Position numbers and translations under genes: made by a program | Shown here: positions 38,849-63,994 of the stretch, piece by piece | Layout: the number at the start of each line of letters is the position of its first letter | How positions within the stretch are numbered: position 1 is the stretch's first letter | The notes under the pieces: model-generated | The model's database searches: none | What the model was told of the DNA's origin: nothing | Seen by the model: the letters and a program-made list of their open reading frames with translations, nothing else | Virus record (IMG/VR): IMGVR_UViG_3300045747_000583 | Span: 20,789 to 84,788 of that record | Origin: a virus | Length of the DNA stretch: 64,000 bases | Direction: 5' to 3' (one strand)

Positions 38849-39376
38849 CTACCTCTTGTACCTGAACCCGGCGACGCTTCTCCAATGGCCTCCAAACTCC
38901 ATCTTCAAGTCCTTGCTCACCCGGCTCCCGGCCCCGCCGATCAGCTTCTGGCTGACCTGGTGCCAGTCCGGGTTCCGACGCAGCGCAGCGCAGAGCGCGG
39001 GGTGCGCGGTGTGCATCAGCGTCGGGACGGGCGAGCCGATGAAGCCGTCGCCGAGGAACTCGCGCTCAGCCAGGTGGTTCAGGAACCGCAGGCCCACGCC
39101 AGCACCCTGCCACTCCGGGTGCGTCACCATCCGGCAGGCTCGGGCGATCCGACGCTGGCCCGCCCAGAACCCGCTCATCCCGAGGAAGACGACCGGGTCG
39201 CCGCTGACCGCCTCGAACCCGGTGTAGGCGGTGCTGAACGGCATCGGCTTCGCGTCGTGGAGGTAGTGGTGGTAGCGCGCCCACTCGAACCATGGACCCC
39301 AGCCCGTCTCGACCACCTCGAGCACGATCGGCTCGCGCTGGAAGATCTCGGGCGCCGCGAGCACCAGCTGCGTCAT
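38849..39376 (-). CDS. Mom-like GNAT acyltransferase, 175 aa
   Basis: Starts ATG 39374-39376, overlapping the ABC ATPase stop (ATGA). GNAT fold: WARYHHYLHDAKP at 32-44, a central beta strand (DPVVFLGMSGFW), and the acyl-CoA pyrophosphate loop HPEWQGAGVGLRFL at 86-99. The C-terminus (MHTAHPALCAALRR, then RSVAGFRYKR) matches the acetyltransferase domain found fused to ABC ATPases in COG2401. The HHYL motif and overall plan resemble the Mu Mom family, which modifies adenine N6 in DNA. Being coupled to the ABC protein supports a joint machine. Substrate here is inferred, not shown. Confidence 0.75.
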   Translation of the reverse strand: MTQLVLAAPEIFQREPIVLEVVETGWGPWFEWARYHHYLHDAKPMPFSTAYTGFEAVSGDPVVFLGMSGFWAGQRRIARACRMVTHPEWQGAGVGLRFLNHLAEREFLGDGFIGSPVPTLMHTAHPALCAALRRNPDWHQVSQKLIGGAGSRVSKDLKMEFGGHWRSVAGFRYKR

Positions 39377-40065
39377 GCGACCACCTGGCCGACCGTGGGT
39401 GAGTCGAAGCCGTCGCGGCGCGTGACCGTCGGCTCGACGGCCGACCAGTCGTCGCCTACGGTCGGGACGCCCTCGAGGCTCGTGCGCAGCACCCAGTCGG
39501 GCTGGAGCCAGGGCAGGATGTCGTCGTGCGGGGTCAGCATGACGATCCGGCGTTCCTCCCCGCGACGCCACGCCTTCGCGAATGCGCCCGCCCCCACACG
39601 TGCGACGTTCCGGTCCAGCACGCTGGTGAACTCGTCGAACCAGACCCGGTCCGGACGGTCGGCGAGCAGCCGGGCGAGCTCGGCGCGGTACTTCTCGCCG
39701 TTCGAGAGGACGTGGTAGGGCCGGAGCCACGAAGGTACCGTTCCGAGGCCGACGGAGGCCAGCACGGACGTCACGGCGTCGAAGTCGCCGTCGGGGGCGA
39801 TCGCGTCGATGAGGGCCGAAGAAGGCCACGGTTCGGAGCCCCACTCGGTCCAGCCCTCGGCGCTCAGCGCCCGGCCGACGCTGGTCTTCCCCGAGCCGGA
39901 CGGCCCGACGACGACGCCGATCCGCCAGCCGTCCTCCTCGACCGGGATCTCGACGTCGAAGCAGAACTCCGCACCCATGCTCTCTTGGACGTTGAAAAGC
40001 CCCAGCGCGCGGTCGACGCGGTAAGAGCGCGGGAGCTCCAGGCGGTTCCGTACCTCGATCCTCAT
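39373..40065 (-). CDS. ABC-type ATPase of the Mom-like cassette, 230 aa
   Basis: Starts ATG 40063-40065, coupled to the ParB-like stop by TGATG. ABC motifs: Walker A GPSGSGKT at 54-61, signature LSNGEKYR at 120-127, Walker B RVWFDEFTSVLDR at 140-152 and an H-loop His in MLTPHDDILPW. There are no membrane segments and no transporter genes nearby. It fits soluble ABC ATPases that are fused or linked to GNAT domains (COG2401-like) in phages and archaea. Expected to work with the adjacent acyltransferase, perhaps loading or moving it on DNA. Confidence 0.82.
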   Translation of the reverse strand: MRIEVRNRLELPRSYRVDRALGLFNVQESMGAEFCFDVEIPVEEDGWRIGVVVGPSGSGKTSVGRALSAEGWTEWGSEPWPSSALIDAIAPDGDFDAVTSVLASVGLGTVPSWLRPYHVLSNGEKYRAELARLLADRPDRVWFDEFTSVLDRNVARVGAGAFAKAWRRGEERRIVMLTPHDDILPWLQPDWVLRTSLEGVPTVGDDWSAVEPTVTRRDGFDSPTVGQVVA

Positions 40066-43021: not shown

Positions 43022-43404
43022 CACGGCCACCTCCCCGTCTCTCGTGCGAACATCGCCATCGAGGCGTACACCAGCGTGTCGCTCCAGGTGTCGAAGCTCG
43101 GCGTCTTGCCCTTGAGCATCGCATCGGCGACGCGCTGCACCTTCCCGTAGACGTAGAGGAAGCAGCCGATCTCGACGGCCTCCCGCTCCTCGATCTCGCG
43201 GCCCTGGCCGCGGGCGAAGATCCGGCCCATCTCGACCAGCGAGTTAGTCCCGTACTCCTCAGCCTTCGCCGCGATCGTCGGCGCGTTCGCGTCGACCCAG
43301 GCGTGGAACCAGTCCGGGTACGCGACCGGCGGGGCGACGACCCCGGTGATCGCGGACGGGTGCCGGGTCATCGACTCCGACCGCATGCCCTCCTCGTCCG
43401 TCAC
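43021..43404 (-). CDS. mazZ: MazG-like dNTP pyrophosphohydrolase (MazZ candidate), 127 aa
   Basis: Starts GTG 43402-43404, overlapping the purZ stop as GTGA, so the two are translated together. All-helical NTP-pyrophosphatase layout: AAKAEEYGTNSLVEMGRIF at 45-63, then EAVEIGCFLYVYGKVQRVAD at 75-94 and PSFDTWSDTLVYASMAM at 102-118. The conserved Glu, Lys-x-x-Arg and Asp-x-x-x-Asp positions match small actinophage MazG-like enzymes. In Z-genome phages MazZ hydrolyses dGTP to dGMP, the PurZ substrate, and dATP to dAMP, removing the competitor. Direct coupling to purZ makes MazZ much more likely than a housekeeping MazG. Confidence 0.8.
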   Translation of the reverse strand: MTDEEGMRSESMTRHPSAITGVVAPPVAYPDWFHAWVDANAPTIAAKAEEYGTNSLVEMGRIFARGQGREIEEREAVEIGCFLYVYGKVQRVADAMLKGKTPSFDTWSDTLVYASMAMFARETGRWP

Positions 43405-44483
43405 AGCCAGGCCGATGGGTTGTAGACGCTCATCGTGTTCGGGCCCGTACCGACCAGCGCGACCGGCGCGGCAGCCTCGATCGCGATCGTGTCGAGGAAG
43501 TCGCGGTGCGTCTCCTTGAACTCGTCCGGCCGGGCATCACGCAGCTCCGGGTACTTCTGGTCGAGCATCGAGAGCGCGAGCACGACGTCGCGGCTCGGGC
43601 CGCCGTTCGCGCGCACCGCCTGGCTGACCCAGTCGGCGTCCCAGTCCCCGACGCGACGCACCTTCTTCGTCACCGTGGTCAGCTCCTCGGGCAGCCCGAG
43701 CGCCTCCCAGGTCGTCTCGGACGCGAGGTATCCGCTGTTGCCCGCGACGCGGATCGGATAGACCCGCACGACGACCACGACGCGGACCCGGCTCACGCCC
43801 TCGGCCCACGGGCTGACCCCGGCCATCGAGAGGAAGTCGATCGCCCGGCAGTCCGCCGTGGTGCACTTCGGGTAGTGCCCGGCGTGCAGCCCGAGCTGGT
43901 AGCCCTGGACGCCCTCGATCACGACGTGCCAGCCCTCGCTCAGGCGCCGGGAGAGCAGCGCCGCGGTGTTGACCACCCGGCCGGGCACCCCGCCGTTGAC
44001 GGCGAAGTCGCCGATCAGCCGGGCGCCGCGCAGCATCCGGTCCGCCCGAGCGGCGCCGACGCCCTTCGCCGTCGAACCGATCGCCTTGTGCAGGTCGAGC
44101 GCAGCCTCGGTGTCCTTGTGCTTCTGCTCGATCACCGTCGACTCCGGGTCGACCCAGAGCCGATCCGCGATCCGGTGCCCGGCGGCCTCGAGCTCGGAGA
44201 CCTCGGACCGGAGCACGTCGAGGTCGATCTCGGACCCGGCGGCGATCACCAGCGCGGCGTTCGGGTTGACGAAGCTGACGGGCACGTGCCGGAGTGGCCA
44301 GGCGCGGCCGGAGTCGTCGTAGACCGTGTGCCCAGCCTGGCTCCCCCCGACCCGCACCCCGACATGCGGGGTCTTCGAGCTCGCGTCCTCGTAGGCGAGG
44401 AAGCCGGTCGCGGCCCCCTTCGCCTCCGAGCCCGCCTGGCCGCCTACCACCACGGTGATCAGGCCCTGTCGTGAGATGGTCAT
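43401..44483 (-). CDS. purZ: PurZ: succinoaminodeoxyadenylate (dSMP) synthase, 360 aa
   Basis: Starts ATG 44481-44483 after AGGAGGACTG. A relative of adenylosuccinate synthetase: GGQAGSEAKG at 14-23 and GSQAGHTV at 47-54 (active-site His52). Cellular PurA has Asp in the GDEGKG motif; here it is Ser19 (GSEAKG), the known change that lets PurZ act on dGMP plus Asp instead of IMP. At 360 residues it is shorter than PurA (about 430), as phage PurZ enzymes are. The product is converted to dZMP (2-aminoadenine deoxynucleotide) by adenylosuccinate lyase, also encoded here at 54225-55421. Confidence 0.9.
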   Translation of the reverse strand: MTISRQGLITVVVGGQAGSEAKGAATGFLAYEDASSKTPHVGVRVGGSQAGHTVYDDSGRAWPLRHVPVSFVNPNAALVIAAGSEIDLDVLRSEVSELEAAGHRIADRLWVDPESTVIEQKHKDTEAALDLHKAIGSTAKGVGAARADRMLRGARLIGDFAVNGGVPGRVVNTAALLSRRLSEGWHVVIEGVQGYQLGLHAGHYPKCTTADCRAIDFLSMAGVSPWAEGVSRVRVVVVVRVYPIRVAGNSGYLASETTWEALGLPEELTTVTKKVRRVGDWDADWVSQAVRANGGPSRDVVLALSMLDQKYPELRDARPDEFKETHRDFLDTIAIEAAAPVALVGTGPNTMSVYNPSAWL

Positions 44484-46812: not shown

Positions 46813-46919
46813 GACGCCAGCCCCAGCGCCTCGAGCAGCAGGGCGCAGTCATCCGCGTCGACCGCGCATGCGGCGACGACGCGCCGGGCCAGGTCAGCAA
46901 GCTCAGGCTCCACGGTCAT
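46809..46919 (-). CDS. 36-aa acidic peptide
   Basis: Starts ATG 46917-46919 within the end of the MerR-like gene; stop overlaps the next start as ATGA. Predicted single helix, acidic (MTVEPELADLARRVVAACAV, then DADDC). Existence is supported by overlaps at both ends only. Confidence 0.45.
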   Translation of the reverse strand: MTVEPELADLARRVVAACAVDADDCALLLEALGLAS

Positions 46920-47286
46920 CCCGCTCCTCATCAGCTCGGTCGTTGTCATCATCAGCTCGTCCATCGGGGTCCTCCAGGGTGGGCAGCACGGGCAACGTGA
47001 TCACCACGCCGTACTCGAGCCGGATCGGCACCGGGGGCAGACCCCAGAGGCCGACGTTCCGCACGTGCGTCCGGGCGATCGCGCCCGCCACATCGGGTCT
47101 GAGCCCGGCGGTGACGAGGATCCCCATGTAGCGCAGCACGTCGATCTGCAGCCCGGAGAGCTCGCGGGCGTAGCCCGAACCGGGCGTGAACTCCGGCCGG
47201 TTCCCGTCGACGAACCCAGCCCGGAGCCAGTAGTCGATCTTGCGGTAGCTGAGCCCGGTCTGCTTCGAGAGCACTCTGGTGATCAC
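46903..47286 (-). CDS. MerR-like DNA-binding protein, 127 aa
   Basis: Starts GTG 47284-47286. The N-terminal 50 residues form a winged HTH of MerR/excisionase type: VLSKQTGLSYRKIDYWLRAG, then a wing with GSGYARELS. This is followed by a helix (LQIDVLRYMGILVTAGL). The C-terminus is an acidic tail (DDDNDRADEERDDRG). A likely transcription regulator of the phage, and a candidate to bind the dyads at 38153, 45977, 22941 or 11160; no direct evidence links it to them. Confidence 0.75.
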   Translation of the reverse strand: MITRVLSKQTGLSYRKIDYWLRAGFVDGNRPEFTPGSGYARELSGLQIDVLRYMGILVTAGLRPDVAGAIARTHVRNVGLWGLPPVPIRLEYGVVITLPVLPTLEDPDGRADDDNDRADEERDDRGA

Positions 47287-47706: not shown

Positions 47707-48164
47707 GTCCCCGCCTCCGTCGTCGGCTCAGCCGGGGCGCGACGGATGTCCGCTGCCATCTGCGTCCGCACGCGGGCCTCGATGAGCGGGAGGACGGCGG
47801 CTACGGCGAGTGCGGCGAACTTCTCCCGCTCGTGGAGGTGCAGCGGACCCTCACTGACCTCGGAGTCGGCCATCGCCTCGCTCGCAGCCCGCACGATCGC
47901 CTCGTCGGAGATGTTCTCGCTGACGAGACGACGGCCGTGCCGTTCGATCGCGGCCAGGTGGTTCAGGAAGTCGGGGTGCGACGAGAAGGTGATGCCGCAC
48001 TCCACACACTTGACTGGGCGGTACTCCACTACGGCTCGGTCGGTGGTCGGTGCGGGAGCGACGTAGGAGGGGCAGGCGCAACCTTCCTTGAAGCATTGAG
48101 GCCCTGCGGAGAAGTGCTGATACTTGTCGTGCGCGCAGTTGGCGCAGGCTCGGTCGGTGGTCAC
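47703..48164 (-). CDS. Zinc-finger protein, 153 aa
   Basis: Starts GTG 48162-48164, overlapping the polymerase stop (GTGA). N-terminal CANCAHDKYQHF with CFKEGCACPSY, then a C2H2-like finger CVECGITFSSHPDFLNHLAA with a later RHG. The C-terminal half is helical (DEAIVRAASEAMADSEVSEG). Coupled to the polymerase gene, so may be a replication accessory; unproven. Confidence 0.65.
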   Translation of the reverse strand: MTTDRACANCAHDKYQHFSAGPQCFKEGCACPSYVAPAPTTDRAVVEYRPVKCVECGITFSSHPDFLNHLAAIERHGRRLVSENISDEAIVRAASEAMADSEVSEGPLHLHEREKFAALAVAAVLPLIEARVRTQMAADIRRAPAEPTTEAGT

Positions 48165-50152
48165 TTCTCGAACCCGCTCTCATCGCAGCTGCCGGGGATC
48201 CCGAAGTGCTCGAGCCAGGACTCGGCGGTCATCGCCTTGATCTGCGCGACGATCTCGTCGGCCTCGTCCTCGCGGAGGTCCAGGAGGACGGAGTCGTGGA
48301 CGGTCAGCACCAGGGCCTCCTGCGGGGCGGTGAGCCGCTCGACCATCGGGAGCCAGACGTTCCCGACCCAGCGCGCGAGGCTGCCCTGGACCCGGCGGTT
48401 CCAGGCCGTGTTCGGGTAGTCGGTCGGGCCGCCCATCCAGCTGAACGTCCCATCGTAGAGCGGCACCCGCTTGTTGACCTGCGCGTAGTCGCTCCAGCTC
48501 TCGTACTCAACGCCGAACTCCGGGTAGGACGCGCGCCAGGCCACCACAGCGTCGCGGCAGCGCGAGAGCTCCCACTTGACCCCGGCGAGCTGCATCAGCG
48601 TCGCCTGGAACCGCGGCGCGCCGATCATGAAGATCGAGCCGAAGGTCAGCCGCTTCGCGATATCCCGGTACTCGCTCCAGCCCTCGTCGCCGGGGTGCAG
48701 CCCGAAGACCTGCGTGGTGGTCCGGCCGTGGAAGTCGGCCCCCTCGGCGAGGTCGGTGACCATGGGCTTGCAGTCCGCGAGCTGCGCAGCGATCCGGAGC
48801 TCAGCCTGCGCGAGGTCGAGGTTGACCCGCCGACGGCCCTCCGGCACGCCGAAGAGGCTGCGCGGCTCCGGCAGCACGTCCCCGAGCAGCGTGATCCCCG
48901 TGTGCTTCGGCAGCGCCTGCGCCTGGAACCGCTCGACGCTCATCCGCCCCGACTTGACCCAGGCCTGGCGGAAGGACGTGCGCAGCCGACGGTCCGGTCC
49001 GGCGAGCTCCGCGTAGTTCCGGTAGAACATCCGGTTCGCCATCGTGAGGTCGACGAACTCCGCGTACTCGGCCGCGCCCGGCACGCCCTGGGCCGCCATC
49101 CGGCGCGAGACGTCAACGGTCAGCGTGCCCTGCTTCTCGACCTTCGTCTCGCCGGGCTTCTTGAGGTTCGGCGCGAGTACGCGGCGCTCCTCGCCCGGCT
49201 CCCACGGCGCGAGCCCGAGCTCGTCGAAGAAGTACGCCGTCGCGACCGTCGCAGTGGCCGGGGAGAACGGGAGCGCCGTCGCGAGGTCCGCGATCCGGGC
49301 CTCGACCCGGTCCGCGATCGCAGCGGAGCGCTCGACCTCGTACGGCCCGAGGCCGCGGCGCTCGATCCGGTACAGGATCCGGGCCAGCCGGACCGCCGCG
49401 GCGTACTCCTCGTACGGCAGCTCGCCAGAGTCGATCCGCTCCATCTGGAGCTCATGGAGCCGGAGCGCGAGCACCGCGTCAGCGAAGACGTACGGCCCGA
49501 GGATCTCCCACGGCACGAGGTCGTAGCGGGGCCCGTGCTCGGCCCGGAGCCCGTAGCGCTTCTTCACGTCGATCAGCGCCTGCCTCTGGTCGGCGGCCTC
49601 CTCGACCGCCTCAGCTCCCCAGTACCTCGCCGCGGTCGGCTTCAGCGACGTGGTCCCGGCGGTCGGGTCGAGCACGCTCGTGCCCAGCATCGTGTCGTAG
49701 AGCTTCCCGGCCGGGATGTACGGCTCGATGTCGACACCGCACCAGCCCCAGGGCGCCCCGCCGCGGAGCATGTGCATGTCGAACTTGACGTTCTGGTTGA
49801 CGTACCCGACGCGGCTCACGGCGCGTACGATCCAGTCCAGCAGGTAGTCCCACTCCTCACGGGGGAGGTTCGGCTGCGGGTCCTCCCAGCTGTCGTTGCC
49901 CCCGCGGGCGGCGCCGGACTTGAGTCGCTGGACCGAGAAGCCCTTCCGGGCGGAGTCCCCGACGTCGAACGGGAAACCGTGCGCCTGGATGAAGCCGGGG
50001 TCGTCGGAGCGGCGGTAGGCCAGGCCGCCCGCGACGGTGTAGGCGCCGTCGTCGACGAACAGCCCGGTCGTCTCCAGGTCGGCGCACAGCGGCCCGACGA
50101 GCAGCTCCGGGTCGGGCAGGACCATGCTGGGAAGCTCGAGTTCGAAGGTCAT
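48161..50152 (-). CDS. dpoZ: Family A DNA polymerase with 3'-5' exonuclease (DpoZ candidate), 663 aa
   Basis: Starts ATG 50150-50152, 6 nt after TAGGCT, so predicted leaderless. Exonuclease motifs: LCADLETTG (Asp25, Glu27), NQNVKFDMHML and YVFADAVLAL. Polymerase motif A NLDLAQAELR (about 446), motif B RDIAKRLTFGSIF (about 497) and motif C VLTVHDSVLL (about 619). In motif B the usual Tyr of the O-helix is Phe, and motif C has HDS instead of HDE. In Z-genome phages a linked PolA-type polymerase, DpoZ, copies with dZTP. Together with purZ and mazZ this is the likely role. It has no 5'-3' exonuclease domain. Confidence 0.88.
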   Translation of the reverse strand: MTFELELPSMVLPDPELLVGPLCADLETTGLFVDDGAYTVAGGLAYRRSDDPGFIQAHGFPFDVGDSARKGFSVQRLKSGAARGGNDSWEDPQPNLPREEWDYLLDWIVRAVSRVGYVNQNVKFDMHMLRGGAPWGWCGVDIEPYIPAGKLYDTMLGTSVLDPTAGTTSLKPTAARYWGAEAVEEAADQRQALIDVKKRYGLRAEHGPRYDLVPWEILGPYVFADAVLALRLHELQMERIDSGELPYEEYAAAVRLARILYRIERRGLGPYEVERSAAIADRVEARIADLATALPFSPATATVATAYFFDELGLAPWEPGEERRVLAPNLKKPGETKVEKQGTLTVDVSRRMAAQGVPGAAEYAEFVDLTMANRMFYRNYAELAGPDRRLRTSFRQAWVKSGRMSVERFQAQALPKHTGITLLGDVLPEPRSLFGVPEGRRRVNLDLAQAELRIAAQLADCKPMVTDLAEGADFHGRTTTQVFGLHPGDEGWSEYRDIAKRLTFGSIFMIGAPRFQATLMQLAGVKWELSRCRDAVVAWRASYPEFGVEYESWSDYAQVNKRVPLYDGTFSWMGGPTDYPNTAWNRRVQGSLARWVGNVWLPMVERLTAPQEALVLTVHDSVLLDLREDEADEIVAQIKAMTAESWLEHFGIPGSCDESGFEK

Positions 50153-54049: not shown

Positions 54050-54228
54050 GCGGTCGCCCTCCAGGTCGCCGCGATCGCGCCGCGCAGCCACTCCGCTGCG
54101 CAGGACTCCGCCTCGTACGGGGACCAGTCGTCGGCCAGGAGCTTGGCTCGGAGTCCCTTCGCCGCCTCTAGGATCGGGTCCAGCTGCTCCATCGCGGTGA
54201 CCAGGGCCTCGGCCAGTTCGTCGCTCAC
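54046..54228 (-). CDS. 60-aa helical protein
   Basis: Starts GTG 54226-54228 overlapping the purB stop (GTGA). Predicted helices MSDELAEALVTAMEQLDPIL and AESCAAEWLRGAIAATW. No family recognised; translationally coupled to purB. Confidence 0.5.
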   Translation of the reverse strand: MSDELAEALVTAMEQLDPILEAAKGLRAKLLADDWSPYEAESCAAEWLRGAIAATWRATA

Positions 54229-55421
54229 GACGAGCCCTCCTCGTCGGCCACGGAGGCCTCTTTCGTCGCCTCGGGGGCACCGGTGGGTCCTGGCCCCCGA
54301 CCGGCCCCTCGCCCGACCTCGTAGGCGGCTTCGTGGCTCATCCCGTCGGCGACCCGACGCCACAGCTCGGCTGGGCTCTCCGGGATCCGGGCGAGGTTCG
54401 CCTCGCAGACCCGGGCGTCGACGGTCAGACCGCGAGCGACGTTCGTCGCCTCGACCAGGCAGTACGCCGTGAGTCCGACCAGCTGGGGGACCACGACCCG
54501 CTCGACGCTGCTCGCGGAGAGGTCGCGCTGGTCCCACCAGACGACGTTGGCGTCGAGCGCCCCCGCTAGTGCCCGCGTGACGCGCTCGAGCCCACAGATC
54601 CGCTCGGACCGAGTCGGGTTCTGCTTGAACGCCATGCTCGAGCTCCCGACGTAGCGCGAGACTCCGGTCGGCTCGAAGAGCTCACCGTCGCGGGCCCCGA
54701 GCCGGACCTGTAGCGCGAAGTGCGCCGCGGCGGTCGCGAGGTCGGCGACGCTCCGGCCCCACCGCGCGATCTGGTCCCGCCGGACAGCCTGCTCCGAGTG
54801 CGACTCGAGCACGACTCCGAGCATACCGGAGGCCCGTACGGCAGCCTGCCGACTGAACGTCTCGTACCGCCCCGTCGGACCGCCGAGGCTGGCCCGGAGC
54901 CCGGCGGTGGCGTCGAAGAGCTCCATCCTGGCGCCGAGCACCCGGGCGGCCCAGGCCTGGCCCTGGACCGAGAGGTACGAGGCCTCCGCGAGCTGGCCGT
55001 GCGTCCTAGAGGCCCGCGCCACCGAGGGCAGCGCTTCGAGCGTCTGACCGAGCGTCCCAGCCTCTGCCCCGAGCCAGGAGGCCGCGGAGTGCAGCGTCAT
55101 CACCAGGCTCGTGTCGACCAGATTCGAGGACGTGAGCCCGAAGTGGACCCAGTCCCGGGTATCGGACGCGACGACTTCGCGGACCACGGAGAGGAACGCA
55201 GCGACGTCGTGCCCGAGCTCAGCCTCCCTCTGGGCCATCACGACGAAGTCGGTCTCGTTGAACCGGTCCGGGACCGTGTCAGGCTCGACCGAGCTCGGGA
55301 CCAGCCCGTGGGCCCGGGCAGCCCGGAGCACCTCGCGGCTCACGGCCAGCCACCCCGCAGCGGTCGCCTCGGCGGAGAACAGGTCCTCGACCCACTGGAC
55401 AGAGTAGCGATCGGTCGTCAT
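54225..55421 (-). CDS. purB: Adenylosuccinate lyase (PurB), 398 aa
   Basis: Starts ATG 55419-55421, 7 nt after TAGACT (predicted leaderless). Fumarase/ASL superfamily with all key sites: ELGHDVAAF (His71), WVHFGLTSSNLVDT at 91-104, SRTHGQLAEAS (His141), and the signature loop GSSSMAFKQNPTRSER at 259-274 with the catalytic Ser. Slightly shorter than cellular PurB (430-455 aa), with an acidic tail. It removes fumarate from adenylosuccinate-type compounds. In known Z-genome pathways host PurB turns dSMP into dZMP, so a phage copy beside purZ suggests a self-contained pathway or a lyase tuned to the deoxy substrate. Confidence 0.9.
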   Translation of the reverse strand: MTTDRYSVQWVEDLFSAEATAAGWLAVSREVLRAARAHGLVPSSVEPDTVPDRFNETDFVVMAQREAELGHDVAAFLSVVREVVASDTRDWVHFGLTSSNLVDTSLVMTLHSAASWLGAEAGTLGQTLEALPSVARASRTHGQLAEASYLSVQGQAWAARVLGARMELFDATAGLRASLGGPTGRYETFSRQAAVRASGMLGVVLESHSEQAVRRDQIARWGRSVADLATAAAHFALQVRLGARDGELFEPTGVSRYVGSSSMAFKQNPTRSERICGLERVTRALAGALDANVVWWDQRDLSASSVERVVVPQLVGLTAYCLVEATNVARGLTVDARVCEANLARIPESPAELWRRVADGMSHEAAYEVGRGAGRGPGPTGAPEATKEASVADEEGSS

Positions 55422-55862: not shown

Positions 55863-55881
55863 GCCGTGCCTCCGAGGTCCA

Positions 55882-55935
55882 AATCTGCTATTTTGTCCGG
55901 GGCGGAACTCGTGGCCCCGTACTAGAATTGCTCCC
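55882..55935. other. Locally AT-rich segment beside the repeat cluster
   Basis: Contains AAATCTGCTATTTTGTCC and TACTAGAATTG, distinctly AT-richer than the surroundings. In an origin this would be the unwinding element; it may equally be the promoter region of the 93-aa gene. Confidence 0.35.
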
Positions 55936-55969
55936 ATCCTACCGCCGACCTGCGCGGTTCCGTCTCCTG

Positions 55970-56280
55970 GGCTGATTGGGCGATGTCCCCGCGGACCTCG
56001 CGCGTTACGGCGCAAGCGCGCGGCGCGAGACGTACGCGGCGCCCGCGTGCATAACCCCGTCTGATCGCCCATACCGCCCAATGACCCCTTTAAGACCCTC
56101 TTTTCCGCGGAAGAAGCATTGGCCGGACCCCTCCCAATGACCTCCCAATCGCCGCCCAATGACCCCCTCCCAGCCGCCCAATCGCCTCGTTTGCCTCAAA
56201 GGCCCGCACCTCCCAGTCACGCCCCCCATACTGATTGGGAAGCCCCATTGGGCGGCTATTGGGTGGGTCATTGGGCGACC
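55970..56280. repeat. Ten-copy ATTGGG iteron cluster, putative replication origin
   Basis: Intergenic region of 418 bp (55863-56280) between the 93-aa gene and the primase-helicase. ATTGGG (mostly [CG]ATTGGG[CA]GG) occurs on the plus strand at 55975, 56234, 56247, 56258 and 56270, and on the minus strand at 56077-56082, 56133-56138, 56144-56149, 56155-56160 and 56177-56182. The divergent clusters flank a TTGCCT-CAA-AGGC dyad at 56191-56203. Spacing of neighbouring copies is about 11 bp in several places (one helical turn). Iterons next to replication genes are typical of origins. Confidence 0.6.
56191..56205. promoter_or_regulatory. TTGCCT-CAA-AGGCCC dyad inside the iteron cluster
   Basis: Same sequence class as the dyads at the three TTGCCT-type promoters (22941, 38153, 45977). 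Its presence between the divergent repeats suggests one protein links promoter control and replication. Confidence 0.4.
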
Positions 56281-59226
56281 TCAGCCGCCCGCGACGACGG
56301 TCCGAGCGTGCTTCGTCAGCACCCGGTACTCCGCCATGCCGCCCTTGTACCGAGCGACGTAGCGGACCGGCTTCCCGTCCTCGTCGGCCACGCACAGAGC
56401 CGAGATCTGGTTCTCGATCGCGTTCTTCGCGACGTTCCTCACGTCGTCACTCACCCCTGCCCTCCGCCCCTCGTCCGAGGTCGCCCAGAGGTAGAGCTCG
56501 CGCCCTCGCACGGCCACCATCAGCGTCTCCGCCTCCTCCGGGTTGACCAGCCCCGAGGCTACGATCCGGATCACGGGCGGAGCCTTCGTCCGCACCACCT
56601 CGGTCCCTCCGACCGTCCGGGCGTCGAAGCCCTCTTGGCAGGCTCGCCCCAGCAGCGTCGAGGGCGAGACCTCGTCCTCCAGCACCTTCTGCCACTCGGC
56701 CTTCGTCACTGTGAACGCCTTCGTCGCACTCGCGCTGGCCAGCGCTCGAGGCAGCAGCTCCGTGGCTGCGTAGGTGTCCAGCCCGGCGTATGCCAGCTCC
56801 CGCGAGAGCGCCTCGCGCTCGGCCGCCTCCCTCGCGACCGTAGCCTCGATCAGGTCCGCCTCTTCGTCGTACCCCCACACCCTCAGCCAGTCAGCCAGCA
56901 CTACCGCTCCGACCCGCAGGAACCGGCCTACCCGGGCCTCACGCGCTCCCGTGGGCGCTCCGACCCGGTCGTCCCACGCGACCCCTCGGCTCGCCTTCCA
57001 CAGCCCGCGGACGACCCAGCCCGCGTAGTCGGTCAGGATCTCGTGGTCGTAGAGGTCGCCCGCCCCCAGCTTCAGCATGTCGTCCCACTGCGGACGAGAA
57101 GGGTCCTTCCGGCTCATCCGGTCCTGCGCCCGCTCCGTGAACTCCACCGAGACCATCCGGTCGCGCATCGCCTTCTCCTCGCCACGCGACTCCGCCTCCG
57201 CCGAGATCACGATCAGCGCCTCGCTCTTCTGCTCGATCGTCGCGCTGTCGGTGTCGGCCTTCGCCCTGACCCTCCCGCCCCCGGTTGCAGCTCCGCGGAT
57301 CGCGGAGAGGATCTCCTCCATCGCGGGTCCGGCCTCGTCGTCGAGCCAGTACGGCCCGGTCCCCGTTGCGACGTCCCGGCCGAATGCGGCCACCGTCGTG
57401 TTCGACTGGCCGTACCCCAGCGACCCGAACGCCCTCAGCGCCAGCCGCAGGTACGTCGTCTTCCCTGTGTTCGAGAGTCCGTGCACGCTCACCACTCGCA
57501 GCATCCCGGCTACGGCGTCCGTGACCGGCCGCACCGTGTTCGCGGCCAGCGCCGCGAGCAGCACGCACGACTCCTCGGGCCGCCTGAACCACACGAGCTC
57601 GGCGACCTGCCGAGCAGCCACGGACTCGCCTGACTCCTCGCCCTCCGGAGCGCCCAACCCGTACCGCCACAGCTCGCGGGTCCGATCGGCCCGGATCGCC
57701 TGCCCCGTACCGATCACGGCCCCTTCGTAGCCCGCGAAGTGCCACTCCCGGTCCTGCTGGTTCCAGCCGCAGACGGGCCGGACCATCGTCGGGGTCAGCC
57801 GCCCGCTGTGGTGCCGCAGCCAGGTCGAGATCGAAGGTACTCCGCCGTTCCGCCCGCCCAGCAGCTGCAGCGCCCCACCGGTCGGGACGGCGACCTTCCC
57901 GGCCCAGCTCTGCGCCGACGCGATCGCGGCGGCCTCGATCCGGAACGTCCGGAGCTCACCGGTCTCGACCTCGGCCCACTCGACGCTCCAGGCTGCGTGC
58001 GTCCCTTCGGGGTCGACCTCGACGCCGACGACCTCGGGTGCGACCGCGAGCACGGGCACGAGCGTGAACCCGGCCATCGCGTCGAGCGGCTCCCCGCCTC
58101 CCTCCTTCGCCTTCGCGCGCCCACGCGTGACGTGACAGAGCACGGCGTGCGTCGAGTCCGGCGGGACGGTCGTGACCAGCATGCCGGTCTGGACGGAGAA
58201 CTCGCCGTACGGGTCCTCGGCCTCGAGGTCCTCGTCCGTGACCTCCCCGACCACCATCCGCTCGCGCCACTTCAGCCCGTAGAAGTCGACGGCCTGCGCG
58301 AGGTCCCTCGCACGCTCCGGCGGGTACAGGATCTCGACGCTGCTCCCGCCTGCGATCAGCGAGGGTCCCACGGCCCCGACGATCCGCGCTACGCGCCTCC
58401 GCCCAGCGGGGTCGTTGTCCCCGACTACGACGACCCGGACCACCCGCCCGACGCAGAGCTCCGCCACGGCGTTCGCGATCCGCTCGACGTCCTCGTTCGC
58501 CCCGCCTCCGGCGGTGGTCGCGATCCGGCCCTCAGCTCCGGCGACGGGTTTCTTCGCAGCCTTGTCCGCCTCGAACTGGAGTTGGGCGAAGTACGCGTCC
58601 TTCTCGCCCTCGGTGAGCCAGAGCTCGGCCCCGCCCGCGGCTGCCCAGGCCCGGAGCTCCGGCCCGCGCCACAGCGGCTCGAGCTCGTACTCGCCCCTCC
58701 CGGGCTCCCAGGCGTCCTTCCCGACGTAGTGCTTCCAGATGAACTTCGCGCCCTCGGTGAGCCGGTACTCCCGGACGTGCGCAGCAACGATCGCGTCGGC
58801 GCGGCCCTCCTCCTCGACCCCGCACCAGTGGTACTCGGTGCTCATCGGGGAGAGCTGGTACATCTGGAGCTCGAGCGCGGCCACGACCTCGGTGGTCTCG
58901 CACGAGGCCTGGCACTTGACCAGCACCCGGCCGTCCGGGGTCACGCTCCAGCGCAGCGACTCGACCCGGTCGTCGTGGGCTGGGCAGGTCACCGTGTAGT
59001 TCCCGCTCAGGTCCGGGCGCCCCATCGCGATCCCGCGCAGCCCTAGCGCCCGGACCCAGACCGCCTCCGGCTCCTGGCCGATCCGCCGTACGTAGGCCTC
59101 GACCCGTTCGCCCGCAGGCAACGGGGCCGCTTCGTCGCCCTCGGACGCGCTCCCGGGCCGATCGGACCCGGACCCTCCGTCTGTGCTCGTCGTTAGGCCT
59201 TCGTTGCCCTCGTCCGGGTCCGACAC
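56281..59226 (-). CDS. Primase-helicase fusion: zinc, Toprim and DUF927-type ATPase domains, 981 aa
   Basis: Starts GTG 59224-59226 after GAGAGGAGCG. Residues about 75-115 hold a CHC2-type zinc motif (YTVTCPAHDDR, then VKCQASC). Residues about 195-290 form a Toprim fold (ELWLTEGEKDAYFA and VVVVGDNDPAGRRR). The C-terminal half is a helicase ATPase of the DUF927/D5-like kind, with Walker A VHGLSNTGKTTYLRL at about 585 and Walker B-like PYWLDDEAGPAMEE. It would prime and unwind DNA at the fork. It ends at the iteron cluster, supporting an origin there. Confidence 0.85.
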   Translation of the reverse strand: MSDPDEGNEGLTTSTDGGSGSDRPGSASEGDEAAPLPAGERVEAYVRRIGQEPEAVWVRALGLRGIAMGRPDLSGNYTVTCPAHDDRVESLRWSVTPDGRVLVKCQASCETTEVVAALELQMYQLSPMSTEYHWCGVEEEGRADAIVAAHVREYRLTEGAKFIWKHYVGKDAWEPGRGEYELEPLWRGPELRAWAAAGGAELWLTEGEKDAYFAQLQFEADKAAKKPVAGAEGRIATTAGGGANEDVERIANAVAELCVGRVVRVVVVGDNDPAGRRRVARIVGAVGPSLIAGGSSVEILYPPERARDLAQAVDFYGLKWRERMVVGEVTDEDLEAEDPYGEFSVQTGMLVTTVPPDSTHAVLCHVTRGRAKAKEGGGEPLDAMAGFTLVPVLAVAPEVVGVEVDPEGTHAAWSVEWAEVETGELRTFRIEAAAIASAQSWAGKVAVPTGGALQLLGGRNGGVPSISTWLRHHSGRLTPTMVRPVCGWNQQDREWHFAGYEGAVIGTGQAIRADRTRELWRYGLGAPEGEESGESVAARQVAELVWFRRPEESCVLLAALAANTVRPVTDAVAGMLRVVSVHGLSNTGKTTYLRLALRAFGSLGYGQSNTTVAAFGRDVATGTGPYWLDDEAGPAMEEILSAIRGAATGGGRVRAKADTDSATIEQKSEALIVISAEAESRGEEKAMRDRMVSVEFTERAQDRMSRKDPSRPQWDDMLKLGAGDLYDHEILTDYAGWVVRGLWKASRGVAWDDRVGAPTGAREARVGRFLRVGAVVLADWLRVWGYDEEADLIEATVAREAAEREALSRELAYAGLDTYAATELLPRALASASATKAFTVTKAEWQKVLEDEVSPSTLLGRACQEGFDARTVGGTEVVRTKAPPVIRIVASGLVNPEEAETLMVAVRGRELYLWATSDEGRRAGVSDDVRNVAKNAIENQISALCVADEDGKPVRYVARYKGGMAEYRVLTKHARTVVAGG

Positions 59227-59366: not shown

Positions 59367-59849
59367 TCAGAACTCCGCGGGGTTCACCTTTGCCACTCCG
59401 GCGCCGACCTTCGACTCGGTCTTCCCGGCCGCGGCGGCGGGCGGCGCCGCAGCGTCCCCGTCCGGCAGCGTCGCGTCGACGTTGTTCCCGAGCTGGCCGG
59501 TCTTCGCGCCGGACTGGATCACGCGCTGGCTGACCACCAGCCGGACGGTCCCGCCCAGCAGCTCGTCGGTGTGCGTGTCGCTCCCGACGCCGAAGGCGTC
59601 GAAGAACTCCTTGACCTTCCACAGCGCGGTCTCGACGAAGACCAGGTTGGTCCAGAGGTACCGGCCGGTGTGCGGCCCCTCGATGACCTCCCACTCGGCG
59701 GTCCACATCGAGTTGCCCGTCGACGCGGTCTTCGGCGTCACGGACCGGAGCCGGGCGCGGTACTCGTCCGGGGGCAGTGGCTCCCGGCTACCGGCGGTCG
59801 ACTCCTGAGCGTCGACCTGCTTCGCGAGGTCGTCATTGAGCCTGGGCAT
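59367..59849 (-). CDS. DUF669/SSB-like protein, 160 aa
   Basis: Starts ATG 59847-59849 after GAGAAGAGACG. Central region (ARLRSVTPKTASTGNSMWTA, then YLWTNLVFVETALWKVKEFF) matches the DUF669 family, OB-like proteins often found beside Sak4/RecA-type ATPases in phages. The C-terminal 45 residues are Ala/Pro-rich and acidic. Likely binds single-stranded DNA during replication or annealing. Confidence 0.7.
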   Translation of the reverse strand: MPRLNDDLAKQVDAQESTAGSREPLPPDEYRARLRSVTPKTASTGNSMWTAEWEVIEGPHTGRYLWTNLVFVETALWKVKEFFDAFGVGSDTHTDELLGGTVRLVVSQRVIQSGAKTGQLGNNVDATLPDGDAAAPPAAAAGKTESKVGAGVAKVNPAEF

Positions 59850-59914: not shown

Positions 59915-60820
59915 CTACCCCTCGGCCGACGCTTCCGTCTCGGCAGCCTCGGGCTCGACGACCCCTCCTCCCTCGACCTTCTCGGCCACCACGGCGGCGG
60001 CCTCGCCAGCGGCGGCCATCGCGGCGTCGCGGGCGGCCTGCTGGCGCGGGTCCTCGCTACGCTCGAGGTTCCCGTCGATGTACGCGACCATCCGGAGTGC
60101 GGAGGGGTCGACCATCCGGCCGGGCAGCAGCCCGAACCGGTCCTTCGCCTTCCGCTTGTTGATCGGCGTCGTGGTCCCGAGGTAGAACGTCTCGTCCCCG
60201 ATCGGCTCGACCGTGTTGTAGCAGACCACGTCGACGAGTCCCATCGTGTCGTTCGCGATCGAGGGCCCCATCGCCGGGCCGTACGCGACCGACCCGTCGT
60301 CGTCCTGGTCCCGACGCTCGAGGGCGGTCAGCACGACGTGCAACGGCAGGTCGGTGAACCGGCGCAGCACCGAGCGCATCATCGAGCTGCTCGTCCCGTA
60401 GTCCTCGAGGTTGATCTGGAACCGGTCGCGCTGCTTCCCGAGCCGGGCGGCCTTCTCCAGTGCGGCCTTCGTCACCGTCTCGAGCAGCCGACGCGAGAGC
60501 TCGGTCATTGAGTCGATCATGACCCCGGCGTAGGCGTTCGGGTCATCCAGCAGCTCGGTCCGGAGCTCGACGTACATCGCCTCGACCGCATCGTAGGTCA
60601 GCGCCTCGGGCCCGTCCGGCGGCCACAGCAGGATGTTCTTCGCGACCACGCCGTGCTGCTCGAGCGCCCGCTTCTTCGCGCCACCCTCAGCGTCGATCAC
60701 GATCAGCGGGCCGAGCTGCGAGAGCGACGCGCCCGCGGTGGTCTTCCCCGTTCCGGGCGGCCCGTAGTTCAGCACCCGGAGGTACGTCCTCTGCTCGGTG
60801 AGCGGCTTCCCGATCGTCAC
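59915..60820 (-). CDS. RecA-fold ATPase, Sak4-like, 301 aa
   Basis: Starts GTG 60818-60820. Walker A YGPPGTGKTTAG at 19-30, Walker B-like PLIVIDAEGG and AGVMIDSMTELSRR, and a VVLTALERRD strand. The core of about 240 residues with Ala/Glu-rich tail fits the phage AAA_24/Sak4 single-strand annealing ATPases. Neighbours (SSB-like protein, Cas4-type nuclease, primase) complete a replication-recombination module. Confidence 0.82.
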   Translation of the reverse strand: MTIGKPLTEQRTYLRVLNYGPPGTGKTTAGASLSQLGPLIVIDAEGGAKKRALEQHGVVAKNILLWPPDGPEALTYDAVEAMYVELRTELLDDPNAYAGVMIDSMTELSRRLLETVTKAALEKAARLGKQRDRFQINLEDYGTSSSMMRSVLRRFTDLPLHVVLTALERRDQDDDGSVAYGPAMGPSIANDTMGLVDVVCYNTVEPIGDETFYLGTTTPINKRKAKDRFGLLPGRMVDPSALRMVAYIDGNLERSEDPRQQAARDAAMAAAGEAAAVVAEKVEGGGVVEPEAAETEASAEG

Positions 60821-61779: not shown

Positions 61780-61898
61780 GGCTCACCCTCCTCGTCCAGC
61801 AGCGCCAGCAGCGCCACGACCCCGGAGTCGTCGAGCCTGTACTCGACCATCACCGGGTGCCCCTCGTCGTTAACGTAGTGGATCGAGATCCTGCGCAT
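61773..61898 (-). CDS. 41-aa protein
   Basis: Starts ATG 61896-61898, coupled to the nuclease stop by TGATG. MRRISIHYVNDEGHPVMVEY, then a helix DSGVVALLALLDEEGE. Small beta-hairpin plus helix. Supported by coupling at both ends. Confidence 0.5.
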   Translation of the reverse strand: MRRISIHYVNDEGHPVMVEYRLDDSGVVALLALLDEEGEPC

Positions 61899-62869
61899 CA
61901 CGACGCGGCCTCCTTCACCGCAGCGAGTCCGGCGTCGGCCGCCTCCTTCTCGGCAGCGCGGCGAGCCTCGTCCTCGCGGTGCGTGTCCGGCACCCAGCCG
62001 AACCCGGACACCGCGTCGGCCATCGAGCGCCCGGACCGGCGAGCGTGGAGGTGCGCCTCCTTCGCGTCACACTTCCACTTGCACTCGGACGGGTTCGGCG
62101 AGCTGTAGGGCTCCTCCGGGCGGCGTTGCGTCGTGAGCATCGCGCGGGCGACCTTCCCGGCGTCGACCCACAGCGCGCGGAGCTCCTCCTCTCCGCGGAA
62201 CACCAGCGTCCGGCCGGAGCGTTCCTCCAGCGTCATCTTCCGCACCAGCTTGTCGCTCCGGAGCCGACCGTAGACCGCACCGAAGACGTCGATCCCCTCA
62301 CGCTGCATCGCGGCGATGTAGATCCCGAGCTGGTCGTCGATGTCCAGCTCGCGGTCGTACGCCGCGCCGGAGGCGTCGCGCCCCTTCGCAGTCTTCCAGT
62401 CGATGATCCAGATCCGACCCTGCAGGTCGCTCACCAGCAGGTCGGCGCGGTACTGCATCCGGACGTGCTCGCCCGCGGAGCGGGTCAGGAACGCGTCACC
62501 CTTGACCTCGACGCCGAGGATCTCCCTCCACTCCGGATCGACCCTATAGCGCTCGACGTAGCCCTCGTACATCCAGGCCACGTTCGCGATCGTCTCCGCG
62601 TCGAGTCCGGCCTGGCCCTCGAACCCGTCGGCCCAGTCCTGGAGCACCGCGTCGACCGCGGCGCCCGCCTCGATGAGGTTCCGCGGGCGACCCTCCCCGT
62701 CGTTGCGCTGCAGCGAGCGGAAGTGCGCCTCCATCACGGCGTGCAGGCACGAGCCCTGCGAGAGCGCGTGGGCCTGCTCCGGCGGCCGGAGCCGCAGCGT
62801 GTAGTGGACGTAGTGCTTGAGCGGGCACTGGCGGTACGTGTCGAGCTCGCTGTAGCTCGTCTTGATCAT
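61898..62869 (-). CDS. Cas4/RecB-type PD-(D/E)XK nuclease, 323 aa
   Basis: Starts ATG 62867-62869, overlapping the previous stop. YSELDTYRQCPLKHYVHY at 5-22 is the typical N-terminal motif. The core YRADLLVSD...GRIWIIDWKTAKG at about 139-163 gives the Asp and the D-x-K active site, followed by QLGIYIAAM. A C-terminal CKWKC plus the N-terminal Cys could bind an Fe-S cluster as in Cas4/AddB, though one of the usual four Cys is not obvious. Predicted exonuclease for recombination, paired with the Sak4-like ATPase. Confidence 0.82.
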   Translation of the reverse strand: MIKTSYSELDTYRQCPLKHYVHYTLRLRPPEQAHALSQGSCLHAVMEAHFRSLQRNDGEGRPRNLIEAGAAVDAVLQDWADGFEGQAGLDAETIANVAWMYEGYVERYRVDPEWREILGVEVKGDAFLTRSAGEHVRMQYRADLLVSDLQGRIWIIDWKTAKGRDASGAAYDRELDIDDQLGIYIAAMQREGIDVFGAVYGRLRSDKLVRKMTLEERSGRTLVFRGEEELRALWVDAGKVARAMLTTQRRPEEPYSSPNPSECKWKCDAKEAHLHARRSGRSMADAVSGFGWVPDTHREDEARRAAEKEAADAGLAAVKEAAS

Positions 62870-63186: not shown

Positions 63187-63443
63187 TGTCCGCCCCTGTC
63201 CGGTCCGCGGGTCTCTCCGTACCCGACGTCCTCCTTGTCCAGGAAGATCGTGGTGAAGCGCCGACCCCGCTCTGGGCTGGCCGGGTACAGCGCCCTGAAC
63301 CCCCAACCGTCCGGGACGGTCAGGATCAGCGTCTCGCCGTCGTCGACCAGCTTCAACTCAGCTCGGCCGCGCTCGAGCGAGAGCGCGATCACTGCCCTCG
63401 GCTCGGGCTCGGCCTCGACGATGGCCGTCCTGTCCTCGCTCAT
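63183..63443 (-). CDS. Hypothetical protein, 86 aa
   Basis: Starts ATG 63441-63443, overlapping the HicA-like gene stop. Beta-rich (AVIALSLERGRAELKLVDDG, then RFTTIFLDKEDVGYGE). No family recognised. Confidence 0.55.
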   Translation of the reverse strand: MSEDRTAIVEAEPEPRAVIALSLERGRAELKLVDDGETLILTVPDGWGFRALYPASPERGRRFTTIFLDKEDVGYGETRGPDRGGQ

Positions 63444-63994
63444 CTCTGTCCTCTCGTGTTGCGCCGGAGCGGTACGCCCAGCGTGCGTCTTAGCTGGCTC
63501 AGTGCGTTCAGTAGGGAGCGGTGGTCGCTGGCCGTGACGGGCAGCGTCACCAGCCGGTCGCCGTTCGAGTTCGAGACGGCTAGGTGCTTCCCGCCCTGCT
63601 CAACCTCGAACCCGTCGGCTCGTAGCATCGTGATGAGCTCCTCCCAGCTCGTCGGGTTCAGGTTCCCCGCCCCACCTCGCCCCCGGGCGACCCCGGTCGT
63701 GTTCTTCGCGACCTCGGCCTTCCTCGCGGCCGTCTCCGCCCGGGCCTCGTCCATCTGGTCCGGCGTGCGCACCCGGAACCCGACGACGATGTCCAGCGTG
63801 GACAGCACCGCGGTGACGTGGCCGTCGTGGACCTGCAGCCCGCCGAACGGGTGGTCGTGCGGGGTCGAGTGGTACGAGCCGCGTCTGCTCCGGTGTCGGA
63901 GCGCGAGCGCCGCTACCTCGTCGGCGATCCCGTCGCGGATCGCTCGGTCTAGTACGGACGGCGCCCACGGGACGCCTCCGTGCCAGGCGCTCAT
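63440..63994 (-). CDS. Protein with C-terminal HicA-like domain, 184 aa
   Basis: Starts ATG 63992-63994 at the window edge; an earlier start outside cannot be excluded. The N-terminal 95 residues are His/Arg-rich (YHSTPHDHPFGGLQVHDGHV). After a Gly-rich linker, residues about 112-175 form a HicA/YcfA-like double-stranded RNA-binding-type fold: SWEELITMLRADGFEVEQGG, KHLAVSN and LPVTASDHRSLLNALSQLRR. The HicA catalytic His (GSHxxY) appears as GGKHLAV. No HicB antitoxin is visible in the window, so a regulatory RNA-binding role is as likely as a toxin. Confidence 0.6.
   Translation of the reverse strand: MSAWHGGVPWAPSVLDRAIRDGIADEVAALALRHRSRRGSYHSTPHDHPFGGLQVHDGHVTAVLSTLDIVVGFRVRTPDQMDEARAETAARKAEVAKNTTGVARGRGGAGNLNPTSWEELITMLRADGFEVEQGGKHLAVSNSNGDRLVTLPVTASDHRSLLNALSQLRRTLGVPLRRNTRGQR

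Follow-up and report, generated by a model that had tools for sequence, protein, structure and literature searches.

Short repeats directly behind the gene of a helicase-type initiator have been described for Staphylococcus islands. The SaPI Rep helicases recognize, via their C-terminal domain, iterons immediately downstream of the helicase gene, and the isolated C-terminus of Cch2 from SCCmec binds repeats downstream of its own gene, which form a putative origin (PMC7581432). In the P4 alpha protein, which unites a TOPRIM-type primase, a helicase and a C-terminal winged helix, the winged helix binds the origin repeats, and pRN1 depends on an element located 3' of the gene for its primase-helicase (PMC4234260). 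ORF904 of pRN1 and the replication protein of phage BIP-1 are likewise primase-helicases with a C-terminal winged helix, whose 3' origin element is essential (pRN1) or proposed (BIP-1) (PMC4234260). Unlike the phage analyzed here, these two systems have an archaeo-eukaryotic-type primase, a stem-loop and reportedly no iteron origin.

The phage locus resembles SaPI Rep and SCCmec Cch2 in the placement of short repeats directly behind a helicase-initiator gene, and P4 alpha in the domain composition of the proposed initiator. It differs from the staphylococcal systems in that primase and helicase share one chain, in its own family A DNA polymerase, in its iteron words and in the lack of any detectable sequence similarity, whereas the difference from P4 alpha lies in the helicase, which belongs to another branch. 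The Prim-Pol/helicase modules of actinophages (Hiyaavirus, Korravirus, Ghobesvirus, Goodmanvirus and others) have the same gene order, a related helicase and C-terminus and an array behind the initiator, but carry a Prim-Pol N-terminus and other repeat words.

The ATTGGG array and its genomic setting

The window, i.e. the whole stretch of 64,000 nucleotides under analysis, comprises bases 20789–84788 of an 84,788-bp IMG/VR virus record. Because the ends of this record are identical over 127 bp (1–127 and 84662–84788), the genome looks complete and is probably circular or terminally redundant. Nearly all predicted genes lie on the minus strand (Table 1). Comparison with phage records revealed no DNA similarity for the region from 48 to 63 kb and only chance-level similarity for the gap which harbors the array. 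Two further observations concern the flanks: a 184-aa protein (63440–63994, minus strand) ends in a HicA-like domain scoring slightly under the Pfam cut-off, and two adjacent minus-strand genes (38849–39376 and 39373–40065) correspond to consecutive halves of phrog_11143, as though a single protein had been split. The genes for PurZ, for a family A polymerase close to those of PurZ phages and for a PurB-like lyase make it probable that the phage DNA contains 2-aminoadenine in place of A.

Table 1 Features of the proposed origin region and its neighboring genes (window coordinates).
Feature	Position	Strand	Remarks
PurZ	43401–44483	-	314.9 bits vs curated cut-off of 300
Family A DNA polymerase	48161–50152	-	Nearest: PurZ-bearing phages (Ghobesvirus, Archimedes, Korravirus)
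PurB-like lyase	54225–55421	-	
Non-coding gap, proposed origin region	55863–56280	.	418 bp, primase-helicase gene to 93-aa ORF; from gene calls and word cluster
Iteron ATTGGG, lone left copy	55975–55980	+	
Inverted repeat	56075–56277	.	13-bp perfect arms 56075–56087 and 56265–56277
Iteron ATTGGG	56077–56082	-	
Candidate melting or loading core	56080–56119	.	Joint AT-richest 40 bp of the window
Perfect palindrome TTCCGCGGAA	56103–56112	.	Inside the AT-rich 40 bp
Iteron ATTGGG	56133–56138	-	
Iteron ATTGGG	56144–56149	-	11 bp from preceding copy
Iteron ATTGGG	56155–56160	-	11 bp from preceding copy
Iteron ATTGGG	56177–56182	-	22 bp from preceding copy
Degenerate iteron ACTGGG	56212–56217	-	Profile score 11.2
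Iteron ATTGGG	56234–56239	+	
Iteron ATTGGG	56247–56252	+	
Iteron ATTGGG	56258–56263	+	
Iteron ATTGGG	56270–56275	+	
Primase-helicase, proposed initiator	56281–59226	-	981 aa; Zn/TOPRIM-like N-terminus, AAA+ helicase of actinophage Prim-Pol type, C-terminal winged helix
C-terminal winged-helix domain, proposed iteron reader	56284–56574	-	About residues 885–980; model pLDDT 80, helices then beta wing; aligned family-wide
DUF669 protein, conserved replication-module gene adjoining primase	59367–59849	-	
Sak4/RecA-like recombinase	59915–60820	-	
Cas4-type exonuclease (PDDEXK)	61898–62869	-	

As outlined in Table 1, the gap contains ten exact copies of ATTGGG, five on each strand, in full agreement with the number, orientation and place behind the primase-helicase gene given by an earlier, sequence-only reading. 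The word is rare elsewhere: 13 copies were counted in the window and 14 in the entire 84,788-bp record, only four of which lie in the ~84 kb beyond the gap. Base shuffling of the gap (20,000 times) yielded a mean of 0.16 and a maximum of 3 copies, and when all 6–8-mers were scanned without bias for clusters of 320 bp, the array ranked first in the genome (E ~4e-15). Alignment of the copies extended the consensus to GGTCATTGGGCGG, and the derived profile added one good degenerate copy. The sequence-only reading had described two divergent groups with several copies one helical turn apart. Both orientations are indeed present, but the actual order along the gap is one lone plus-strand copy, five minus-strand copies and then four plus-strand copies instead of two blocks of five; the minus block shows steps of 11, 11 and 22 bp, the plus block steps of 13, 11 and 12 bp. 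With regard to its remark that nothing coding accounts for the conservation, the gap contains no predicted gene and only mechanical ORFs. As in iteron origins, several short repeats thus stand in non-coding DNA beside the gene of the proposed initiator, and as in the SaPI/SCCmec type they follow the helicase gene directly, the last iteron lying 5 bp from its end.

An AT-rich element by or among the repeats, which is a further feature of iteron origins, is found as well: on the 40-bp scale the candidate core, which lies within the array, shares the highest AT content of the window (53% AT vs 30%). The patch at 55882–55935 which had previously been singled out is only mildly AT-rich (44% AT, top 0.4% of the 54-bp windows) and is not supported as the key element. 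For 56060–56280 a strong single-strand fold is predicted (z = -5.2), stemming largely from the inverted repeats, and one could suppose that these form a hairpin which ends or stabilizes the primase transcript. We regard such an RNA role as very unlikely: neither a terminator-like site nor an Rfam match was found, and the helical-turn spacing together with words kept in both orientations in relatives better fits a protein on duplex DNA. At fourfold sites, furthermore, both GC skew and AT skew shift sharply between ~55700 and 56200, though the flanking genes share one strand. The coding-strand GC skew at these sites amounts to +0.18 right of the array and ~0 left of it; the sign at the array is the inverse of the leading-strand bias usually seen for departing forks, and the relatives display no common pattern, so that skew speaks neither for nor against an origin.

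The primase-helicase as the proposed initiator

In the proposed initiator, the N-terminus is similar, from about residue 76, to Zn/TOPRIM primases found in phages of Arthrobacter and Microbacterium. Residues 573–779 are similar to the helicase which Streptomyces phage Keanu and its kin encode, and the C-terminus can be aligned over the entire initiator family. Within this family the C-terminal domain is the most variable part, with a mean identity of 28% vs 48% for the helicase. An IMG/VR search with the primase alone retrieved no relative. Neither the whole protein nor its helicase part matched the P4 alpha family TIGR01613 in NCBIfam, and a sequence search against the PDB gave no match at E <= 1, so that sequence homology to SaPI Rep or Cch was not found.

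A first structure model, built from 5 sequences, was poor (pLDDT 39.5) and was rebuilt with 48 aligned sequences, resulting in a pLDDT of 80 and a pTM of 0.79 for residues 481–981. The modelled C-terminus consists of helices followed by a two-strand wing, which is the element order of a winged helix. The top PDB match of the modelled helicase and C-terminus was SCCmec Cch (5dgk, E 2e-6), followed by the weaker matches SaPI5 primase-helicase (7ola, E 2e-3) and PriRep1 (7pds, E 3e-3) as well as many MCM, D5 and AAV Rep helicases. Among solved initiator folds, Cch and the SaPI5 primase-helicase are thus nearest to the phage model, which places a C-terminal DNA-binding domain of that fold behind the helicase, as in the SaPI/SCCmec type. 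Since the TM score against 5dgk over the whole chain is only 0.43, the link to Cch is, as far as the model indicates, a fold-level kinship of a flexible multi-domain protein.

Arrays behind related initiators

The proposal of an origin would have been refuted if relatives with conserved replication genes lacked the region; at the matching gap, however, these relatives carry a repeat array made of other words. The comparison covered 15 annotated actinophage loci, among them several close kin. Most are arranged as exonuclease, RecA/Sak4, DUF669-like gene, primase-helicase, gap, polymerase, and 13 have the same replication module. Among these 13, the top word cluster of the 17–26 kb locus falls in 11 either into the gap following the initiator or into that between PurB and PolA, although it is tied in Sapo and only modest in two phages, Cicada and Archimedes. 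The two remaining phages, Pumancara and Joann, have weak GTAAC repeats, and Cicada likewise shows weak repeats only. The gaps of Keanu, Hiyaa and Galactica contain 9–11 copies of GGGTAAC in both orientations, those of JackieB and Intolerant the word ATACAC and those of Theresita and Olihed GACACAC, while in the PurB/PolA gap of Sapo and Frizzle two opposed groups of CTGTGAAC words flank a pyrimidine and AT tract. ATTGGG itself was common to none of the relatives found. In four groups of related phages, repeat columns were more conserved than spacer columns (88 vs 53%, 87 vs 59%, 95 vs 76% and 81 vs 72%); since a column counted as repeat if an exact word covered it in any member, the repeat values are biased slightly upwards. 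DrManhattan and GardenState, which encode TOPRIM plus D5_N and have the N-terminal primase type alone in common with the phage, showed no array in the short gaps tested.

A profile of the initiators retrieved 80 IMG/VR loci, from which non-redundant subsets of 47 and 46 loci were analyzed; L108, a coding repeat of L049, was subtracted for fair counts, which are given in brackets. The top cluster lies 0–900 bp past the initiator stop in 30 of 47 loci (29 of 47), compared to 3.1 expected by length, a lenient null as non-coding gaps are richer in repeats. The better controls are the upstream and elsewhere counts. Between -200 and +900 bp of the stop the top cluster was found in 33 of 46 loci (32 of 46), whereas it fell into the 900 bp ahead of the start in 1 of 46. 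Clusters with E < 1e-7 occur after the stop in 27 loci (26) and elsewhere in 6. The repeat words are lineage-specific, and adjacent same-strand copies in the relatives are mostly 8–12 bp apart. Covariation of the repeat words with the C-terminus gave no signal (Spearman 0.07), and across lineages repeat similarity tracks the C-terminal domain no better than the helicase. In L146 a Prim-Pol N-terminus is fused to a P4-family helicase (TIGR01613; 8001–10118), immediately followed by seven CGTCATAC repeats. A tie between the array and one primase or helicase type was considered and is not clean, as this locus has an array and DrManhattan and GardenState show none.

These surveys bear on the view that the array is an operator through which a phage regulator controls the downstream genes (93-aa ORF, PurB-like lyase) or the primase operon. 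The gap divides two same-strand gene blocks and probably holds a promoter, Theresita displays a promoter-like TTGACG...TAGGAT downstream of its repeats, and a MerR-like HTH protein, which the sequence-only reading had named as a possible binder, is encoded at 46903–47274. On the other hand, arrays trail the initiator gene in dozens of phages irrespective of the next gene, no sigma-70-type site was found in the gap of the window, and at least ten sites over 300 bp exceed the needs of a simple operator. We therefore consider an operator unlikely, and the MerR-like protein as binder is not supported. A dual function, in which the initiator-bound iterons of an origin also limit the expression of the initiator's own or the next operon, appears slightly less likely still. 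In iteron plasmids, binding of the initiator to iterons both starts replication and limits expression, and the iterons of the phage are close to gene borders; the array lies behind and not before the initiator gene, though, so that direct repression of its promoter is unlikely.

Scans of IMG/VR for ATTGGG arrays (30 and 16 loci) led to mixed contexts comprising integrases, terminases and others; a primase relative stood beside none of the first 30, and none of the other 16 held a dense array. In two of these contigs (L014, 4050–4290; L025, 10318–10345) ATTGGG repeats with an 11-bp period have a tyrosine integrase as neighbor; they flank a tRNA-like stretch in L014 and are probably integrase arm sites. 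That the array studied here consists of arm-type sites of a tyrosine integrase, and hence marks an attachment site, is nevertheless extremely improbable: no tyrosine integrase was found in the apparently complete genome by a search which was positive in all 14 control genomes, and the 64-kb window contains no tRNA. The Sak4 neighbor loci L044–L050 showed no iterons. Long in-frame tandem repeats of 9 and 18 bp, respectively, were noticed within replication-region ORFs of L045 (7706–8156) and L049 (15640–16255).

Proposed mechanism and significance

With respect to the rarity of ATTGGG elsewhere and the arrays in the matching gap of relatives, a replication origin, as already put forward by the sequence-only reading, is the best-supported interpretation. 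In line with the precedents of SaPI Rep, Cch2, P4 alpha and pRN1, we consider it likely that the gap is an iteron origin bound by the adjacent primase-helicase initiator; binding, binding domain, melting and origin activity are all part of what we infer. According to this proposal, the C-terminal winged helix would read the GGTCATTGGGCGG iterons of ~11–13 bp, several of which are one helical turn apart, and many initiator protomers would load on either side of the AT-rich, palindrome-bearing core. The AAA+ helicase part may then form rings, open the core and expose single strands, on which the primase part would synthesize primers; the next steps would fall to the family A polymerase, the DUF669 protein and the Sak4 protein. 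As Z:T pairs surpass A:T pairs in strength, an AT-rich core is harder to melt in a 2-aminoadenine genome. If the phage has such a genome, the AT-rich core may therefore matter less, and opening by a motor is more plausible than passive melting.

Beyond this phage, the evidence tips somewhat towards a widespread, undescribed class of phage origins with a private iteron word behind each initiator gene, which would co-diversify with the fast-evolving C-terminal winged helix across Prim-Pol/TOPRIM swaps and would include probable 2-aminoadenine genomes. No report of these actinophage arrays was found among the open papers in PubMed Central, which is weak evidence for novelty.

To our knowledge, the origins of most phages are unknown. 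The rule "gap behind the primase-helicase" would locate origins in many actinophages and environmental phages together, and tens of natural initiator-word pairs would provide a direct test set for winged-helix specificity. Furthermore, the PurZ phage would allow origin opening to be studied where 2-aminoadenine probably substitutes A.
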